Of a stretch of 37,718 nt of DNA, positions 11,456-18,737 are shown piece by piece. Origin of the DNA: an uncultured Verrucomicrobia subdivision 3 bacterium (GTDB lineage: Bacteria; Verrucomicrobiota; Verrucomicrobiia; Limisphaerales; UBA8199); NCBI GenBank assembly GCA_903913865.1, contig CAIWMU010000054.1:1-37718 (forward strand). Direction: 5' to 3'. Under the pieces are notes generated by a model. The model was not told the origin of the DNA, made no database searches, and was given only the letters and a program-made list of their open reading frames with translations. The stretch's first letter is position 1, and every line of letters starts with the position of its first letter. The translations under genes and the position numbers were made by a program.

Positions 11456-13285
11456 GTGACGCATCATCAATCCGTTCGCTCAGCCCCGGACCCGTCGTTC
11501 CGGGCACGCTCCCGGTCCACCTGGGAGGTGCTCCGCCGCGTCTGCCGCTACCTCATACCCTACAAGGGACTGGCCACCGCCACGATCCTCTGCGCCCTGC
11601 TCTCCATGGGAGCTTCCCTCGCGTTCCCCAAGCTTCTCCAATGGGTCATTGATGGAGTCATCTCCAAAGGCCGAGCAGGCCTGCTTCCCGCAGCCGTTTT
11701 AGGCTTGCTGGGGGCGTTCCTGCTCAGGGACCTGTTCAACAGCCTCCGTATTCTCCTGAACAACACCCTTGAGCAAAACGTCATCTACGACATGCGACGG
11801 GAGGTCTTTGCCCGCCTTCAGCGGCTTCCAGTCGATTACTTTGACCAGCGGGCCTCGGGGGATCTCATGACGCGGGTCATTGAGGACGTCAATTCACTGG
11901 AGCGGGCCCTTATCGATGGCACCGAGCAGGGGTCTGTGGCTGTTTTGGGGGTTGTCGGGGTAGCCATCATCATGTTCGTCACAGACCCGCTGTTGGGCTG
12001 CATGGCACTGCTGCCGCTGCCTCTGCTGGCGGGGGGCGCGCTCTGGTACACCTTGACCGCCCACAGGCGCTACAGGGCCCAGCGCGAGGCCTCCAGCGCC
12101 ATGAACACCCTCCTTCTGGATGACTTGCAGGGGGTGCGTCAGATCAAGGCCTTTGGTCGTGAGCCCCACGAGGATTCCCGCTTCGCCTCCCGTGCCGCCG
12201 ATCTGCGCACCGGAACCCTCGGCATCATGCGGGCCTGGGCTGTTTACTCCCCGGCGATGGCCTTCACGGGGTCGATCGGCATGGCCTGTGTCCTATGGGT
12301 CGGCGGGGGCAAAGTGATCAACGGCAGCCTGTCTGTGGGCGAATTGGTCGGCTTTCTCTTCTACCTCGGCCTCTTTTATGAACCCATCGGCCGGCTCCAC
12401 GCCCTGAACCAGATGCTCCAGTCTGCCCGGGCCGCCGGGGAAAGGGTTTTCGACATCCTCGACTTTCCGGTCGAGCCGGATTCGATCCACGAATCCTCCC
12501 TGAAACTCCCCGTCCGCGGGGATGTTGTTTTCGAAAACGTCTCCTTTGAATATCAGGCCGGATCGTCAACTCTGGACCAGATCAGCTTTCGGGCGGCACC
12601 GGGAGAGATCTTTGCGCTGGTGGGGCCCACCGGTGCCGGAAAATCGACCATCCTCAACCTCCTGCCCCGCTTTTATTCCCACAAGTCCGGCTCGATCCGG
12701 CTGGATGGGCATGAGACGTCCACCCTTCCCCTTCATGTGCTGCGGTCCCAGATCAGTGTCGTGAGTCAGGAATCGTTCCTCTTCAATGGCACCATCCGGG
12801 AGAACATCCTGTTCGGACGCCTTGAAGCGACCGAAACCGAACTGCTGGAGGCAGCCCGCTCCGCCAACTGCCATGAATTTATCAGCCGGCTGCCAAACGG
12901 ATACGATTCCAGGGTGGGTGAGCGGGGAGTGAAACTCAGTGTTGGAGAGAAGCAAAGGGTCACCATCGCCCGCGCCCTGCTGAAAAATGCTCCGATCCTC
13001 ATTCTGGATGAGGCCACGGCAAGTGTGGATACCGCCACTGAAAAGCTGATCCAGGAGGCACTGGAGCACCTGATGGCCAACCGCACAAGTTTCGTCATCG
13101 CCCACCGCCTGAGCACCATCCGCCGGGCCACTCAGATCCTTGTCATCCAGCAGGGGCGGATCCTCGAGCGCGGCAGCCACGAGCAGTTGATCGCCTCCAA
13201 CGGACTCTATAGCAGGCTCTCGAAAATTCAGGATGCGTCATCCATCGAGGAGGGCTTTAAGAAACTCGATATGTCGGCTCCCTGA
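11456..13285 (+). CDS. ABC exporter, fused permease and ATPase (MsbA/ABCB-like)
   Basis: A 609-residue half-transporter that should dimerise in the inner membrane. Residues about 40-330 contain the type IV exporter membrane domain (several hydrophobic helices, with the coupling region around YDMRREVFARLQRLPVDYFD). The nucleotide-binding domain follows: Walker A GPTGAGKST (about 390-398), signature LSVGEKQRV (about 494), Walker B ILILDEAT (about 514) and the H-loop IAHRLSTI. Translation begins at GTG 11456, preceded by GAGGG at a spacing of seven bases. The family includes lipid-A flippases and multidrug or peptide exporters; the substrate here is unknown. The signature has V-G-E-K in place of the usual S-G-G-Q, a common variant in the glycan or lipid exporter subgroups. 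Confidence 0.9.
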   Translation: MTHHQSVRSAPDPSFRARSRSTWEVLRRVCRYLIPYKGLATATILCALLSMGASLAFPKLLQWVIDGVISKGRAGLLPAAVLGLLGAFLLRDLFNSLRILLNNTLEQNVIYDMRREVFARLQRLPVDYFDQRASGDLMTRVIEDVNSLERALIDGTEQGSVAVLGVVGVAIIMFVTDPLLGCMALLPLPLLAGGALWYTLTAHRRYRAQREASSAMNTLLLDDLQGVRQIKAFGREPHEDSRFASRAADLRTGTLGIMRAWAVYSPAMAFTGSIGMACVLWVGGGKVINGSLSVGELVGFLFYLGLFYEPIGRLHALNQMLQSARAAGERVFDILDFPVEPDSIHESSLKLPVRGDVVFENVSFEYQAGSSTLDQISFRAAPGEIFALVGPTGAGKSTILNLLPRFYSHKSGSIRLDGHETSTLPLHVLRSQISVVSQESFLFNGTIRENILFGRLEATETELLEAARSANCHEFISRLPNGYDSRVGERGVKLSVGEKQRVTIARALLKNAPILILDEATASVDTATEKLIQEALEHLMANRTSFVIAHRLSTIRRATQILVIQQGRILERGSHEQLIASNGLYSRLSKIQDASSIEEGFKKLDMSAP

Positions 13286-13440: not shown

Positions 13441-13749
13441 ATGGCCGAGATAGCTGAACCACAAGTTTTGCCGGGGTCTGTTGAATCCGTGAAGGACAAA
13501 ACGGACTCGAAGATCGACCCCGGCTACCTTGTCATCTGCTGGAACGACCCGGTCAATTATATGGAATACGTCACCCATGTCTTTCAGCGTGTTTTTGGCT
13601 GGAACAGACAAAAGGCTGATTTCCATATGCTTGAGGTCCATGAACAGGGGAAAAGTGTTCTGGCCCGCGAGAGCCTGGAGAAGGCTGAGCACTACGTGCA
13701 TCAACTTCAGAAATTCAGTCTCCACGCCACCTTGGAACGTGACGAATGA
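13441..13749 (+). CDS. clpS: ClpS, N-degron adaptor for the Clp protease
   Basis: A 102-residue ClpS-family adaptor, which delivers proteins with destabilising N-terminal residues (Leu, Phe, Tyr, Trp in bacteria) to a Clp ATPase. After a poorly conserved 28-residue N-terminal arm the core begins at YLVICWNDPVN. Pocket residues match E. coli ClpS in register: N35 and D36 (E. coli N34, D35), gatekeeper M41 (M40) and H67 in MLEVHEQG (H66). This argues for canonical substrate recognition. The stop overlaps the next start by ATGA at 13746-13749, so the two genes are translationally coupled. Confidence 0.93.
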   Translation: MAEIAEPQVLPGSVESVKDKTDSKIDPGYLVICWNDPVNYMEYVTHVFQRVFGWNRQKADFHMLEVHEQGKSVLARESLEKAEHYVHQLQKFSLHATLERDE

Positions 13750-14207
13750 AGCTCCGCACCCGCCAGAATGACGAACTGATCTTCGAACTCACCGAGCGGG
13801 AAAGGTCCTGCCTTGTCAACGTTCTTGGGCTTTACCCCCTTACCCCTCCCGCTCACTATCAACTCAGCCGGAACCAGTGCGTTCCCGAGCCGGAGGAAGC
13901 CCAGAAATTGCTGGATGAGGCCATGGCCGAGCAACGGGCCGGCCATCGCAAGGCACTGGATGAGTTCCTGAACAGTTCCACCCGTTTTTCCAGGGCTGGC
14001 CGGAAGGTGTTATTCACCCTGTCGGAACCCGAGGCCGATTTCCTCCTGCAGGTGCTGAACGATATCCGGGTCGGCAGCTGGATTTCGATCGGCTCACCCG
14101 TTGAACTTCCACCGATTCCGACTCAGGGAAACATCCGGGGCATATCAATCATGGAAATTGCCGGGTTCTTCGAAGGAAACATCCTCGCAGCCCTCACCAG
14201 TGACTGA
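13746..14207 (+). CDS. DUF2017-like protein between clpS and aat
   Basis: A 153-residue soluble protein without signal peptide or membrane segment. It starts in the ATGA overlap with clpS. The C-terminal part, LSEPEADFLLQVLNDIRVG (about 97-115), resembles the NDVR motif region of DUF2017 proteins, which lie directly after clpS in Actinobacteria (for example Rv1332 after Rv1331, from memory). The N-terminal third (LIFELTERERSCLVNVL) fits the same family's opening helix, but overall similarity is weak. No catalytic motif is visible. Its position inside an N-degron operon suggests a ClpS- or Clp-associated factor; this is inference. Confidence 0.6.
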   Translation: MKLRTRQNDELIFELTERERSCLVNVLGLYPLTPPAHYQLSRNQCVPEPEEAQKLLDEAMAEQRAGHRKALDEFLNSSTRFSRAGRKVLFTLSEPEADFLLQVLNDIRVGSWISIGSPVELPPIPTQGNIRGISIMEIAGFFEGNILAALTSD

Positions 14208-14246
14208 ACTCCTGAGGGATCCAACCCACCCAACAAAGCCAACGCC

Positions 14247-14912
14247 ATGTCCGGCACCCCCACCCTTGATCACCGGCTGATTTTTCCAGATGCCCGTAAA
14301 GCCAATCGTGACGGTCTGGTGGCCGTCGGTGGAGACCTCTCCGTGGAGCGGTTGCTGCTCGCCTACCGATCCGGCATCTTCCCGTGGACGGTGGATCCCA
14401 TAACCTGGTGGTCGCCGAACCCACGTGGTATTTTCAATCTCGATGACGTTCACGTTCCCCGCAGCCTCCGCCGGGTGCTGCGAGATCCCCCGTTTGAGGT
14501 CACGATCGACAGGGCGTTCCGTCAGGTGATGTCCGGATGCGCCAAATCGGCCCCGGGAAGGGGGGATTCGACCTGGATCTCCCCAGAATTTCTCGATGCC
14601 TACACCCGCCTCCACGAAGCCGGACACGGCCACAGCGTCGAGTGCTGGGCGGATGGAAATCTCGTGGGGGGGATCTATGGTGTGGCAGTGGGAGGACTGT
14701 TCGCCGGGGAATCCATGTTCCACACCGCGAGCAATGCCTCCAAGATAGCCCTCCATACCCTCATCGACCACCTGCGGCGCCGCGAATTTGCCTTGTTCGA
14801 CATTCAGATGGTCACCGACGCCACCGAACCGTTCGGGGCAATCGGGATCCCCCGGGATGATTACCTCCCGCTCCTGGCAAATGCGGTGGCGAAAAGGGTT
14901 TCCTTTAAGTAG
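14247..14912 (+). CDS. aat: Leucyl/phenylalanyl-tRNA--protein transferase
   Basis: A 221-residue Aat enzyme, which transfers Leu or Phe from aminoacyl-tRNA to N-terminal Lys or Arg of proteins, creating primary N-degrons read by ClpS. Family signatures in order: FPDARKANRDGLVAVGGDLS (about 13-32), LLLAYRSGIFPW, WWSPNPRGIF (about 54-63), STWISPEFLDAY, the GxxxGGIYGVAVGGLFAGESMF core (about 136-157) and QMVTDATEPFGA near the C-terminus. Length matches the family. It follows the DUF2017-like gene by 39 bases on the same strand, so clpS, the middle gene and aat form a probable operon that makes and reads the same degradation signal. Confidence 0.95.
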   Translation: MSGTPTLDHRLIFPDARKANRDGLVAVGGDLSVERLLLAYRSGIFPWTVDPITWWSPNPRGIFNLDDVHVPRSLRRVLRDPPFEVTIDRAFRQVMSGCAKSAPGRGDSTWISPEFLDAYTRLHEAGHGHSVECWADGNLVGGIYGVAVGGLFAGESMFHTASNASKIALHTLIDHLRRREFALFDIQMVTDATEPFGAIGIPRDDYLPLLANAVAKRVSFK

Positions 14913-15021
14913 TCCATTTTGCGGAGGCAACGCGCCGGAATGGCACCACCATCCCGTCATCCGCACAAATCCCGAAATAACCGCTTGCACTTGGCGTGGC
15001 TGATGCTAATTGTGGCGCATT

Positions 15022-16197
15022 ATGATGTATAAGATTTCTCAACGTGCGGCGGTTTTGTCCCCCTCGCTGACTCTGGCAATCGATTCGAAGGCCAAGCAGA
15101 TGAAGGCGGAGGGCCAGGATGTGGTGGGTTTCGGTGCCGGGGAACCGGATTTCGACACCCCACAACACATCAAGGATGCCGCCATAAAGGCCCTGAATGA
15201 GGGCTTCACCAAATACACTCCCGCAAGTGGAACACCGGAACTCCGCCAGGCTGTCGCAGACAAGCTGAAGCGCGAGAACGGCCTGACCTACAAGGCCTCC
15301 CAGGTGATCATCTCCTGCGGCGGCAAACACTCCTGCTACAACGTCATTCTGGCCACCTGCGAAGAGGGTGATGAAGTGATCATCCCCGCCCCCTACTGGC
15401 TGAGCTACCCTGAGATGGTGAAGCTCGCGGGAGCCACTCCGGTAATCATCCAAACCTCGGACCGCACCGAGTTCAAGATCACCGCTGAACAACTTCGTGC
15501 CGCCATCACACCGCGCACCCGGTTGTTCATCCTGAATTCCCCGAGCAACCCGACCGGTTCCATCTACACTCCGGAAGAGATCAAGGCTCTTGGGGATGTC
15601 TGCGTCGAAAAGGGCGTGCTCATCATGAGCGACGAGATTTATGAGCACCTCCTCTATGATGGTGCCCAGCACAAGAGCGTGGCGAGTTTCTCCCAGGCCC
15701 ATTACGAGCACACCATCATTGTTCATGGCTTCGCAAAGGCCTGGAGCATGACCGGATGGCGCCTCGGTTTCTGTGCCGCACCGGAGCCGATCGCCAAGGC
15801 GATCGACGCCATCCAGAGCCACAGCACCAGTAATCCGACATCCTTCGCCCAAAAGGGCGGTCTCGCAGCCCTCACCGGCCCCCAGGATCACCTGCCCAAA
15901 TGGCTGGAGGAGTTCAGCAAGCGCCGCGCCTATGCGTTTGAAAGGCTGAACCGCATTCCGGGTGTCTCCTGCGTGAACGCCAAGGGTGCCTTCTACCTGT
16001 TCCCCAACATTTCCGGCACCGGCCTGAAATCCACCGAGTTCTGCGCGAAGTTGCTCGAGCAGGAAAAGGTGGCCGCAGTGCCTGGAATCGCCTTCGGAGC
16101 GGACGATTACATCCGCCTCAGCTACGCCACCAGCATGGCAAACATCGAGAAGGGGTTGGACCGGATCGAGAAGTTCTGCATAGCCCTGAAGAAGTGA
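15022..16197 (+). CDS. PLP-dependent aspartate-type aminotransferase (class I, subgroup Ib)
   Basis: A 391-residue fold-type I aminotransferase of the AspB/AspC-like Ib group; the likely reaction is aspartate + 2-oxoglutarate to oxaloacetate + glutamate. Visible active-site elements are FGAGEPDFDTP (37-47), SPSNPTG with N176, SDEIYE with D204 and Y207, PLP lysine K239 in HGFAKAWSMTGWRLGF, and the carboxylate-binding Arg in YIRLSYA near the C-terminus. The HGFAKAW context differs slightly from the usual NG(V/F)SKAY. Start at ATG 15022 or the adjacent ATG 15025; an in-frame TTG at 15010 is less likely. Broad or aromatic substrate specificity cannot be excluded. Confidence 0.9.
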   Translation: MMYKISQRAAVLSPSLTLAIDSKAKQMKAEGQDVVGFGAGEPDFDTPQHIKDAAIKALNEGFTKYTPASGTPELRQAVADKLKRENGLTYKASQVIISCGGKHSCYNVILATCEEGDEVIIPAPYWLSYPEMVKLAGATPVIIQTSDRTEFKITAEQLRAAITPRTRLFILNSPSNPTGSIYTPEEIKALGDVCVEKGVLIMSDEIYEHLLYDGAQHKSVASFSQAHYEHTIIVHGFAKAWSMTGWRLGFCAAPEPIAKAIDAIQSHSTSNPTSFAQKGGLAALTGPQDHLPKWLEEFSKRRAYAFERLNRIPGVSCVNAKGAFYLFPNISGTGLKSTEFCAKLLEQEKVAAVPGIAFGADDYIRLSYATSMANIEKGLDRIEKFCIALKK

Positions 16198-16276: not shown

Positions 16277-17314
16277 TCACACTTTGGTGCCCGCAAGTTC
16301 CCATGAGGGCATGATGTCTGCATCGCATGGAGTTGGATCCTTGCCAAGAATCATCTGCCGCTCAGCCAGCACCCCGATCATCGCTGCGTTATCGGTGCAA
16401 TAGGCCTTTTCAGCCAGCCGAAGCTTGATCCGCTCCCGGGCACAGGCGCTGGCCAGCTGACGACGCAACCCCCCGTTGCAGGAAACCCCTCCCGAAGCTG
16501 TCACGCAGCGCACGCCCATCCGCTTTGCCGCCCGGATCGTTTTGGCGACCAGCACATCCACGATTGCCCCCTGGACACTGGCACAAAAGTCGGCCAACCC
16601 TTTCCGGTCATCCAGAATGCCGGGGTGGTCCCGCAAACAATACCGCACGGAGGTCTTCAGACCGCTGAAACTGAAATCGTCATCCGGATCGCTCAGTTTG
16701 GGGCGCGGGAAATCGAACGCCTTGGGATTACCCTCCGCAGCAAGCCGATCAATATGGGGCCCTGCCGGATACGGCAGGCCCATGAGCTTCCCTGATTTAT
16801 CAAAGCACTCCCCGGCTGCGTCATCCACAGTCGCCCCGAGAACACGGTGCTTCAACTCAGACTCCACAAACACGAGGATCGTATGCCCCCCGCTGGCAAT
16901 AAGGGAAACATTCGGTTCAAATTCATCGAACCGGGCCTGTGCGGGATTGCCCGAGATCCAAGGGGAATAAAGGTGGGCCTCATGATGGTGGACCCCGAAA
17001 AATGGGAGGCGAAGGGTAAATGCGATCCCTTGGGCCGCCTTGAGCCCCGCCATCAAGGCACTGGGAAGTCCCGGCCCCCGGGTGGCTGCAACCCCTTGAA
17101 TCCGGGAAATCGGCACCCCCGATTCGGCCAAAGCCGCCCGAACCATCGGCTGGAGATTGCGAAGATGCTCCCTTGCCGCCAACTCCGGGACCACTCCCCC
17201 ATATTCGGCATGGAGAGCCACCTGCGAAGAGACGGCGTTGGAAAGGATTCTTCCCTCATGCACCACCGAGGCACTGGTTTCATCACAACTCGTCTCGATC
17301 GCCAGTAGAGCCAT
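16277..17314 (-). CDS. tsaD: tRNA N6-adenosine threonylcarbamoyltransferase TsaD
   Basis: A 345-residue TsaD (Gcp/Kae1/YgjD), which transfers threonylcarbamoyl from TC-AMP to A37 of ANN-decoding tRNAs, working with TsaB/TsaE. The ASKHA-fold start is LLAIETSCDETSASVV, followed by GGVVPELAAREHL, ATRGPGLPSALMAG, the metal-binding histidines in GVHHHEAHLYSPW (about 107-120), GGHTILV and TASGGVSCNGGLR. ATG 17314 is chosen because the fold begins at once; the frame extends 15 codons further without family resemblance. It is the last gene of the minus-strand block and lies 85 bases from the ctpA start. TsaB and TsaE are not in the window. Confidence 0.96.
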   Translation of the reverse strand: MALLAIETSCDETSASVVHEGRILSNAVSSQVALHAEYGGVVPELAAREHLRNLQPMVRAALAESGVPISRIQGVAATRGPGLPSALMAGLKAAQGIAFTLRLPFFGVHHHEAHLYSPWISGNPAQARFDEFEPNVSLIASGGHTILVFVESELKHRVLGATVDDAAGECFDKSGKLMGLPYPAGPHIDRLAAEGNPKAFDFPRPKLSDPDDDFSFSGLKTSVRYCLRDHPGILDDRKGLADFCASVQGAIVDVLVAKTIRAAKRMGVRCVTASGGVSCNGGLRRQLASACARERIKLRLAEKAYCTDNAAMIGVLAERQMILGKDPTPCDADIMPSWELAGTKV

Positions 17315-17399
17315 GCAATATAGCGGTCTTAAACCCGGAAAAAACGGGCAGCTTCCCACGTCTCCTGCGACAGGGTTTTGCTGATATCCGGAAGCGTTC

Positions 17400-18737
17400 T
17401 CACTTGGCCGCCATCTTGCCCGGCTTCTCCTGACTGCCCTCGGTTGCGGGAGCGCGGCTGCTGAAAAGAATCACACCTTTCAGAAGGTCCGTGGCGCGAT
17501 CCAACTGGGCGTCCCGGGCCTTGGACACCCGCTCACGGTCAACCGGCTCCAAACTCTCAAGACCGCCCGGCGTGCGCTGCATGATGATGTCCCGCTCCTC
17601 CTCATCTGTAAGAGGCACGACCCGGTCCGGCATGATACCCTGCTCATGAATCACCTTGTGGCTGGGGGTGTAATACTTGGCCGTCGTGAGGCGAAGAGCC
17701 GCACCATCATCCAGGGGGATGACGCTTTGCACGGAACCCTTTCCGAAGGTCTTCTCCCCAACCAACACCGCCCGCTTCAAATCCTTGAGGCAGCCTGCCA
17801 CGATCTCGGAGGCGCTGGCGCTGCTCTGATTCACCAGCACCACGATGGGCATCCCATGGAGGATATCCCCATGCCCCCTCGCGCGCCGCGTGATGTTCTG
17901 GGCCGGGTTTCTCCCCTCGGTCGTTACCACAAGTTCCCCCGTTGGCAAAAACTTCTCGCACACATCCACGGCCTGCTCCAGCAACCCGCCGGGATTCCAA
18001 CGCAGGTCCAGAATCAGGCCCTGCATCCCCTGCTTTTTCAATTTCTTCAAGGCTGTGTCCAGATCATCGCTGGTTTTCTCCCCAAACTGCACCAGCCTCA
18101 CGTAACCCACCTTGCTCTGATCCAGCGGAAATTCCTTTTTGCTGTTGATATCCTTCACCATGTCCACGTTGATCACGGCCCTGGCAAGTGAATATTCCTT
18201 GGTCTCCCCGGAGGAGGGTCGGAACACGGAAAGTTTGACGGCCGTCCCTGGTTCCCCGCGCAGGGTCTTGACTGCATCCTGAATCCCCAGCTTCTCAGTT
18301 CCCTTGCCATCGATTTTCAGAATCCGGTCCCCTGAAAGAATCCCCGCCTTGAATCCCGGAGTATCCTCCATGGGCGCTACCACGGTGAGGAATCCATCCT
18401 TCACCGACACCACAATACCCAACCCGCCAAAAGCTCCCTGGGTGTCGTTTTGAAGTTCCTTGTACTTTTCCGGTTCCATGAACTCACTGTGGGGATCCAA
18501 TGTGTTCAACATCCCCTTCAAGGCACCATAAACCAGCTCCTGATAGGTCAATTTTCCGCCATCGACATAGTCGCGCCGGACTTTCTCCAGCACCAGGGAA
18601 AACAATTCCAGACTCGGATAGACCGATTCCTTCTGAGCGGCACCCGCAGAGCCCAGGTAAACACGCGCGCCGGCGAACAGGTTCAGAGCCAGCCCGGCGA
18701 CCACCACTCCATAAAGTAAACGTCTTTTCATATCCAT
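17400..18737 (-). CDS. ctpA: Carboxy-terminal processing protease CtpA (S41)
   Basis: A 445-residue periplasmic tail-specific protease. An N-terminal signal/anchor (about 5-25) precedes a helical region, a PDZ domain (about 98-170, GAFGGLGIVVS) and the S41 core. Catalytic Ser308 lies in NQSSASASE and Lys333 in GEKTFGKG, 25 residues apart as in E. coli Prc (S430/K455). GLILDLRWNPGG (240-251) is the characteristic strand-turn. It cleaves near the C-termini of exported proteins, often cell-wall enzymes. The start at 18737 has an alternative ATG two codons later. A non-catalytic relative is encoded at 5367-6401. Confidence 0.95.
   Translation of the reverse strand: MDMKRRLLYGVVVAGLALNLFAGARVYLGSAGAAQKESVYPSLELFSLVLEKVRRDYVDGGKLTYQELVYGALKGMLNTLDPHSEFMEPEKYKELQNDTQGAFGGLGIVVSVKDGFLTVVAPMEDTPGFKAGILSGDRILKIDGKGTEKLGIQDAVKTLRGEPGTAVKLSVFRPSSGETKEYSLARAVINVDMVKDINSKKEFPLDQSKVGYVRLVQFGEKTSDDLDTALKKLKKQGMQGLILDLRWNPGGLLEQAVDVCEKFLPTGELVVTTEGRNPAQNITRRARGHGDILHGMPIVVLVNQSSASASEIVAGCLKDLKRAVLVGEKTFGKGSVQSVIPLDDGAALRLTTAKYYTPSHKVIHEQGIMPDRVVPLTDEEERDIIMQRTPGGLESLEPVDRERVSKARDAQLDRATDLLKGVILFSSRAPATEGSQEKPGKMAAK

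Follow-up and report, generated by a model that had tools for sequence, protein, structure and literature searches.

ClpS is the textbook N-recognin of bacteria and is known mainly together with ClpA. We take N34, D35, D36, M40, M62 and H66 to form the N-degron pocket of E. coli ClpS; residues 34-36 and 66 presumably hold the N-terminal residue, and E79 and K84 presumably touch ClpA. The mycobacterial unfoldase, ClpC1, is a drug target; ClpS is described as acting through the ClpC1 middle domain (PMC6274998), and its action in these bacteria as unsettled. According to one review, ClpS also enhances the degradation of an N-end-rule substrate in vitro (PMC8165232), and another notes replaced residues in the ClpS pocket (PMC5515868). 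Proteins that act alongside ClpS have been reported as well: in plant plastids ClpF is a proposed co-adaptor with ClpS1 for ClpC, and acetylated HspQ and MgtC are described as anti-adaptors (PMC7966870). We hereby analyze a stretch of 37,718 nucleotides (the window: positions 1 to 37,718 of contig CAIWMU010000054.1, assembly GCA_903913865.1) from an uncultured Verrucomicrobia subdivision 3 bacterium, in which clpS is followed by a short gene (the middle gene) and by aat, and we ask what the protein encoded between the two may do.

The middle gene most probably belongs to a family, DUF2017, that accompanies one clade of ClpS, called here the DPVN type after its motif. The partnership is seen in co-occurrence, in adjacency, in the retention of both genes when they are unlinked and in near-exclusivity for this single ClpS clade. 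Since a DUF2017 gene is found in nearly every genome with a DPVN ClpS, the two proteins probably work together, and the middle protein is probably a dedicated partner of DPVN ClpS, most likely a co-adaptor or a setter of ClpS activity at ClpC. The initial annotation had suggested a functional partner of ClpS rather than a chance neighbour, and the co-occurrence, which includes unlinked genes, supports this.

Among 288 genomes of the phylum, ClpS was found in 94, of which one (G129) was left untyped. The DPVN type, described by [ND]-D-[PA]-[VI]-[NST], occurs in 62 genomes including that of the window, and behind its gene there is mostly a short one of roughly 150-190 codons. Classical ClpS, with N-D-[DE]-[YF]-[TS], occurs in 17 genomes and has a ClpA-like gene next in 16 of them (the exception is locus L150), the same order as in E. 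coli and S. meliloti. The remaining ClpS are mixed and come from 14 genomes: two loci (L155 and L157) continue with a ClpA-like gene, and a DUF2017-type gene follows in 0 of the 14. All nine phylum genomes with a match over the curated ClpA cut-off have classical ClpS, and no such match was found among the phylum genomes with DPVN-type ClpS. We chose the DPVN motif once the first 30 phylum loci had been read and then applied it to the next 62 typable loci; its expression was widened after L218 and L221 (N-D-A-V-[ST]) had been seen.

Three family profiles were used: A1, with 29 rows from the subfamily of the window, and the broader A2 and A3; further profiles were built from groups of neighbour proteins drawn up by eye. 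With the group profiles, a DUF2017-type gene adjoins clpS at E<=1e-10 in 54 of 61 DPVN loci and in 0 of 31 loci with other ClpS. Each locus was scored with profiles that left it out, and this is imperfect at two loci: L231 has the gene that is already in A1 as row L003, and its match rests on A1 (the other groups give at best E 7e-4), and L167 was scored by a profile containing near-identical rows. At E<=1e-5, A3 finds the family in 60/62 DPVN genomes, in 0/31 genomes with other ClpS and in 0/194 without ClpS; it misses G158, which A2 and Pfam find, and G134 (locus L165), so that by any broad profile the family is present in 61/62 genomes with DPVN-type ClpS. Weaker A3 matches (E 0.0017-0.0072) fall in G158, in G178, which has another ClpS type, and in G098 and G250, where no ClpS was found; the last three are taken as chance. 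These tests ignore the kinship of the genomes, and Fisher values are descriptive only. The gene had at one stage seemed rare in the phylum (2/145 genomes with the single protein, 2/288 with A1), which was wrong, because A1 is too narrow. Viral contigs scanned with A1 and with actinobacterial DUF2017 gave nothing.

The two genes also occur together when they are apart. No DUF2017 gene adjoins clpS in seven DPVN loci, namely L165 and six of the family f21; in one of the six, L161, the contig ends after another 95 bases. At first f21 was taken to be without the gene, wrongly: all six genomes carry it away from clpS (A2, E 2.8e-11 to 2.8e-5), these genes pass the Pfam cut-off with alignments that span almost the whole profile (E 1.1e-12 to 1.9e-18), and ClpS is over its Pfam cut-off in all six genomes as well. 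With two genomes of the genus g167 (G299 and G386), where clpS lies elsewhere and the middle gene stays in front of aat, eight genomes keep ClpS and DUF2017 though the genes are unlinked. By reading the sequences, the neighbours of the f21 genes look FolE2-like (L232, L234), endonuclease/exonuclease-like (L233, L236) and SpeA-like (L235). Moreover, within families that have both genes some members have neither (G385 in f1, G308 in f81, G330 in f103, and also in f3, f10 and f19), and no sampled genome has a DUF2017 gene without ClpS at the thresholds used. Paired absence in the linked cases is weakened because gaps in draft assemblies can remove two neighbours at once; the unlinked cases are unaffected.

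Closer to the window, a protein search of GTDB genomes with the middle protein gave 26 relatives, in records titled mostly Verrucomicrobia and in some cases Limisphaerales or Pedosphaera. In all 26 clpS is directly upstream, and in 20 aat is downstream; aat is cut off by the contig end, within or before the gene, in L009, L012 and L019. In the order sample (146 genomes) A1 finds the middle gene in 93, with one match per genome, while ClpS is found in 98 (97 over the curated cut-off) and Aat in 86. Every one of the 93 has ClpS, and in 91 clpS immediately precedes the middle gene in the same orientation, with 17-186 bases between the domain matches; aat is directly downstream in 69. A 4-base overlap of clpS and the middle gene recurs in 70 of 90 loci, as counted by a script that favours the reading frame whose start is nearest to that overlap. 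Five ClpS genomes have no A1 match: G326, G327 and G328 have Pfam DUF2017 directly behind clpS, in G307 the two genes lie at contig ends, and the ClpS match of G415 is below the cut-off and has an internal stop. A DUF2017-type gene is thus present in 97/97 order genomes with ClpS over the cut-off (93 by A1, 3 by Pfam, 1 at contig ends), and 48/146 have neither ClpS nor the middle gene. The adjacency to clpS that had been expected in related genomes is therefore conserved, in 26/26 relatives and 91/93 order genomes, and exceeds what chance would give. Two loci of the sample, L108 (G414) and L112 (G393), have ClpS within very long open frames of 1017 and 900 codons, which may be fusions or GC-rich read-through. 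The ClpS and DUF2017 sequences of L027, titled Akkermansia muciniphila, are the same as those of L037 (G295, of the order), and its title looks wrong.

The middle protein is most probably a divergent relative of DUF2017 (PF09438), since members of its family, bridging relatives and profile comparison connect it to DUF2017. Alone, it scores 14.4 bits (E 0.043) against PF09438, whose curated cut-off is 25 bits, and single-sequence searches gave no NCBIfam or PDB match. In the whole source genome, where four candidates were scored, the middle gene is the sole one that the DUF2017 profile matches up to E 10 (12.5 bits). Of the 29 rows of A1 searched singly, 22 match DUF2017 at E<=1, the best at 2.2e-6, and the runner-up family is matched by 3; DUF2397 and other weak Pfam matches of single members are sporadic and were disregarded. 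In 13/146 order genomes Pfam DUF2017 scores over its cut-off: nine of these matches are the A1-family gene, three lie right behind clpS in genomes with no A1 match, and one (G307) is at a contig start; weaker DUF2017 matches at other places in the order genomes are many and look like chance.

Profile comparison with hhalign completes the chain. The family of the window (group A) aligns with actinobacterial DUF2017, represented by two sequences, at E 2.8e-4 and a probability of 41%; it aligns with the Akkermansia-like group C at E 2.7e-6 (89%), and C with actinobacterial DUF2017 at E 3e-6 (88%). Further links are B-C (6.9e-20), E-F (8.2e-22), D-G (1.5e-23) and D-E (1.3e-6), and groups E and F with the actinobacterial proteins (4.9e-6 and 5e-7). 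Several direct pairs are non-significant, including A-D, A-E and A-G. Reversed-sequence controls of A against the actinobacterial proteins and against C gave E 0.071 and 0.23, and all controls were below 2% probability. One representative each of groups C (E 2.3e-8), E and F passes the Pfam cut-off, and the group D representative, at 22.1 bits, is below it. L165 had been filed in group G, whose links rest on the other two rows. Through this chain of significant links, with which the Pfam scores agree independently, the groups of neighbour genes and the two actinobacterial DUF2017 proteins form one family. The suggestion in the initial annotation that the middle gene is DUF2017-like is thus upheld, by significant profile comparisons and by the nine genes of its own family that pass the Pfam cut-off.

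The ClpS proteins that accompany this family also group together. In a tree of 114 ClpS domains, a branch with support 98/93 sets the 81 DPVN sequences, among them the two from Actinobacteria, apart from the rest; when the eight columns of the motif and three rows with long branches are removed, the DPVN side holds 79 of 111 rows with support 96/83. The tree is built on a short alignment, and many of its inner forks lack resolution. In E. coli numbering, P replaces D36 and N replaces T38, each in 79/81 DPVN sequences, K84 is Y in 62/81 (K in 17/18 classical ClpS), and D35 and H66 are kept in 81/81; the window ClpS keeps N34, D35, M40, M62 and H66, with P in place of D36. Mycobacterial ClpS, for which the residues Trp33-Asp-Asp-Pro-Val-Asn-Leu39 are listed (PMC6274998), appears from this list to be of the DPVN type. 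Two other kinds of ClpS in the phylum adjoin neither clpA nor DUF2017: one reads approximately N-D-D-T-H-T-Y (L212, L213, L226 and L228, of family f8; L212, L213 and L226 carry D at the position of E. coli H66), and the other approximately N-D-D-[VH]-N (L176, L206, L217, L223-L225, L227 and L229).

The unfoldase is probably ClpC. In the source genome, a 6.27 Mb draft in 267 contigs, the ClpA model best matches a protein of 837 aa that contains two Clp_N stretches and a UVR motif; it scores 793.7 bits, under the cut-off of 993.15, and we read it as a putative ClpC. In the mechanism that we propose, ClpS and the DUF2017 protein would be made together from overlapping genes, ClpS would contribute the N-degron pocket, and the DUF2017 protein may bind ClpS or the contact between ClpS and ClpC and so alter or complete the delivery of substrates to ClpC; in the lineage of the window, Aat, the presumed maker of the N-degrons, sits in the same run. 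Physical contact with ClpS, co-adaptor action and the direction of the effect are what we infer. More tentatively, DPVN ClpS, having lost the acidic residue at position 36, may be an incomplete recognin when alone, and DUF2017 may supply the other half of an N-recognin of two subunits that serves ClpC, replaces ClpS-ClpA in Actinobacteria and Verrucomicrobiota and widens or gates the accepted N-termini; this extension we regard as doubtful.

The predicted structure offers a candidate surface for such contacts. The AlphaFold2 model of the middle protein (pLDDT 90.7, pTM 0.83) is a beta-hairpin, a short helix, a long helix, a beta-hairpin and two helices. Foldseek found nothing in the PDB at E<=0.001, a result with which a known fold is still compatible; a second structural comparison gave middling, mostly helical matches, the best being 6bms_A (Z 6.6, rmsd 4.2, 113 aligned), of which no use was made. 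These comparisons speak neither for nor against a fold like that of MecA or other solved ClpC adaptors. Searched against the PDB, the profile matched mainly coronin coiled coils (best E 0.022); these alignments cover a stretch that resembles a coiled coil, and we disregarded them. L101, N105, R108 and W112 are invariant in A1 and spaced along one helix, and this side of the helix may be a binding face. In the more diverse A2 the helix N and R are the only invariant columns, and in A3 the R alone is. The conservation of NDIRVGSW in A1 was partly selected for, because this peptide was partly used to pick the relatives.

The main rival of the co-adaptor is an anti-adaptor or stabiliser: the DUF2017 protein would bind ClpS to switch it off, to protect it from ClpC or to time its activity. 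The same genomic evidence would be expected, overlapping genes suggest coupled translation and a fixed stoichiometry, and a precedent exists in acetylated HspQ, which is reported to bind ClpS as an anti-adaptor (PMC7966870). Nevertheless, near-constant retention in the ClpS clade would be expected of an obligate subunit more than of an optional brake, and we consider an anti-adaptor unlikely; the co-adaptor is preferred because almost every sampled genome of the ClpS clade has the pair.

Several points weigh against a dedicated partnership with ClpS. The middle protein of the window itself falls below the Pfam cut-off for DUF2017. In g167 the middle gene remains with aat, away from clpS, and the distances of the middle protein correlate with those of Aat when ClpS is removed (partial r 0.46). 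G134 (L165) has a DPVN ClpS whose neighbouring ORF has the right size and place, and a profile built without L165 gives no match to it; this ORF is either a very diverged DUF2017 copy or a replacement. Finally, the sampled genomes are related, so that inheritance of one ancient pairing and joint loss of adjacent genes, through one deletion or one assembly gap, explain part of the correlation.

Some of these points would favour instead a partner of Aat, that is a protein that aids the transfer of Leu/Phe or passes the tagged proteins to ClpS. In the order sample aat directly follows the middle gene in the 69 genomes mentioned above; the two g167 genomes keep the gene by aat; and in G400 (L110, 1531-2763) a DUF2017-type protein and Aat share one open frame of 411 codons, possibly through a sequencing error, a fusion that is absent from two other sampled genomes of its genus. 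Over 67 A-family loci with all three genes, ClpS and middle-protein distances correlate with Aat removed (partial r 0.49, reached by 0/500 permutations), which counts for ClpS as the partner, the corresponding value with Aat given ClpS is the 0.46 already cited, and ClpS and Aat with the middle protein removed give 0.14. However, no aat was found in 16/93 genomes with the gene (77 have both, and nine have aat and no A1 match), aat is in neither actinobacterial locus, and, in flanks that were 1.5-2.2 kb for most DPVN loci, aat is near clpS in 1/61 DPVN loci besides the window, that of G118, which carries the same subfamily, against 5/31 loci with other ClpS. We therefore rejected aat as an obligate part, and a role of the middle protein as a partner of Aat is improbable. 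The constant unit is ClpS plus DUF2017, and the tie to aat is lineage-specific, largely within the subfamily of the window. Thus, of the three-gene N-degron module that had been proposed, the run of clpS, middle gene and aat is real, and the inclusion of aat holds for this lineage only.

That there is no functional tie at all, only an old gene pair held by linkage and common descent, is disfavoured and highly improbable. The sampled genomes are related, and the tree is compatible with a single origin of DPVN ClpS, so that the pairing may be one event; yet the eight unlinked genomes keep both genes, and some family members have neither, and DUF2017 is kept without ClpS in no sampled genome at the thresholds used.

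In Actinobacteria, an operon with ThiS/MoaD, JAB, cysteine synthase, ClpS and an uncharacterized helical protein was described by Iyer and colleagues in 2006, who considered ubiquitin-like modification ahead of ClpS (PMC1779556); the actinobacterial clpS neighbourhood has thus been in print since then. In records of Tsukamurella and Nonomuraea we find clpS, DUF2017, and then an M67 peptidase, a MoaD/ThiS-like protein and cysteine synthase, with no aat in either locus, and from this gene order the uncharacterized helical protein is probably DUF2017. The earlier statement that DUF2017 follows clpS in Actinobacteria, which were thought generally to lack aat, agrees with these two records and with the control genome of Corynebacterium glutamicum, which matches ClpS and DUF2017 and not Aat. 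In the DUF2017 control search C. glutamicum, Thermus composti and Haloferax volcanii all gave a match, and one of the three matches was over the cut-off. The neighbour common to the two Actinobacteria and to Verrucomicrobiota is ClpS. It is very hard to believe that DUF2017 belongs to the ThiS/MoaD-JAB-cysteine synthase (ubiquitin-like or sulphur) pathway and lies by clpS by chance, since, despite the helical protein listed in that operon type (PMC1779556) and the matching order in Tsukamurella and Nonomuraea, M67, MoaD and CysM are near clpS in 0/61 DPVN phylum loci and in none of the order-sample loci searched.

The features of the run are collected in Table 1.

Table 1. Coordinates, in positions of the window, of the clpS-DUF2017-aat run and of the motifs within it.
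Feature	Position	Strand	Basis
clpS, DPVN-type ClpS adaptor, 102 aa	13441..13749	+	Pfam PF02617 E 1.6e-18; tree grouping with two actinobacterial ClpS
ClpS motif codons, W-N-D-P-V-N-Y-M	13540..13563	+	E. coli positions 33-40; D36 -> P, T38 -> N
ATGA overlap, ATG of the middle gene within the clpS stop TGA	13746..13749	+	sequence
Middle gene, probably DUF2017-related, 153 aa	13746..14207	+	Pfam PF09438 E 0.043, 14.4 bits (below cut-off); family matches; profile comparison
Middle protein residues 100-118 (LLQVLNDIRVGSWISIGSP), best-conserved stretch	14043..14099	+	alignment A1
aat, leucyl/phenylalanyl-tRNA--protein transferase, 221 aa, lineage-specific neighbour	14247..14912	+	Pfam PF03588 E 3.1e-67

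The three genes run in the same direction, and aat starts after a 39-base gap behind the middle gene. Both the run itself, with open reading frames where they had been placed and with clpS and aat identified by Pfam, and the start of the middle gene inside the clpS stop codon are as first annotated. The window ClpS passes the PF02617 cut-off (66.7 bits, cut-off 23) and is slightly below that of NCBIfam NF000668 (83.8 bits, cut-off 86), and Aat is over both of its curated cut-offs (PF03588, 225.8 bits; TIGR00667, 202.5 bits, cut-off 143.55). A promoter scan of the region gave 1 site where 0.6 were expected, and a terminator scan 4 where 2.2 were expected; no tRNA gene or Rfam family was found within the window. 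The run is flanked by an ABC transporter (11456-13285) and an aminotransferase (15010-16197), both named by Pfam; in the order-sample loci, whose flanks are short, the aminotransferase is near clpS in none and the ABC transporter in 1. Further on, 16277-17359 (-) resembles tsaD and 17400-18737 (-) a C-terminal processing (S41) peptidase, as judged by eye.

The term DUF2017 was found in no paper of the open-licence literature, subscription journals being outside the search, and no report of a link between ClpS and DUF2017 appears in the titles and abstract openings of that literature searched for Verrucomicrobia, Actinobacteria and co- or anti-adaptors. As far as these searches show, what is new is the association with a single ClpS clade in another phylum, the survival of the pairing without linkage, and the contrast with clpA-linked ClpS. 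The DUF2017 family, whose homologue in tuberculosis we take to be Rv1332, thereby gains a concrete candidate function to test, with ClpS indicated as its partner rather than the sulphur or ubiquitin-like genes. A prediction follows: in vitro studies that used DPVN-type ClpS alone may have lacked a subunit or a regulator.

The window protein shares with other DUF2017 proteins the place directly behind a DPVN-type clpS, the sequence pattern of the C-terminal half and, as in most groups, the L-N-[DQ]-x-R helix; it differs in being shorter and below the Pfam cut-off, and its neighbour is aat, whereas those of the actinobacterial proteins are M67, MoaD and CysM. Acetylated HspQ and MgtC, as proteins that alter ClpS or the choice of substrates, would be comparable to it; the search for a relation in sequence consisted of the Pfam scan, and to our knowledge neither is encoded with clpS. 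The nearest precedent for a co-adaptor would be ClpS1-ClpF, by analogy, as ClpF is likewise a second protein alongside a ClpS whose unfoldase is ClpC. ClpF has UVR and YccV domains, whereas a Pfam scan at E<=1 finds neither in the middle protein, and because of this the two are likened in mode of action only. The E. coli clpS-clpA operon likewise encodes ClpS together with the protein it works with, in that case the unfoldase, whereas in the window ClpS is of another clade and the adjoining partner would be DUF2017. The data thus divide ClpS: one clade sits with clpA, and another comes with a DUF2017 protein.

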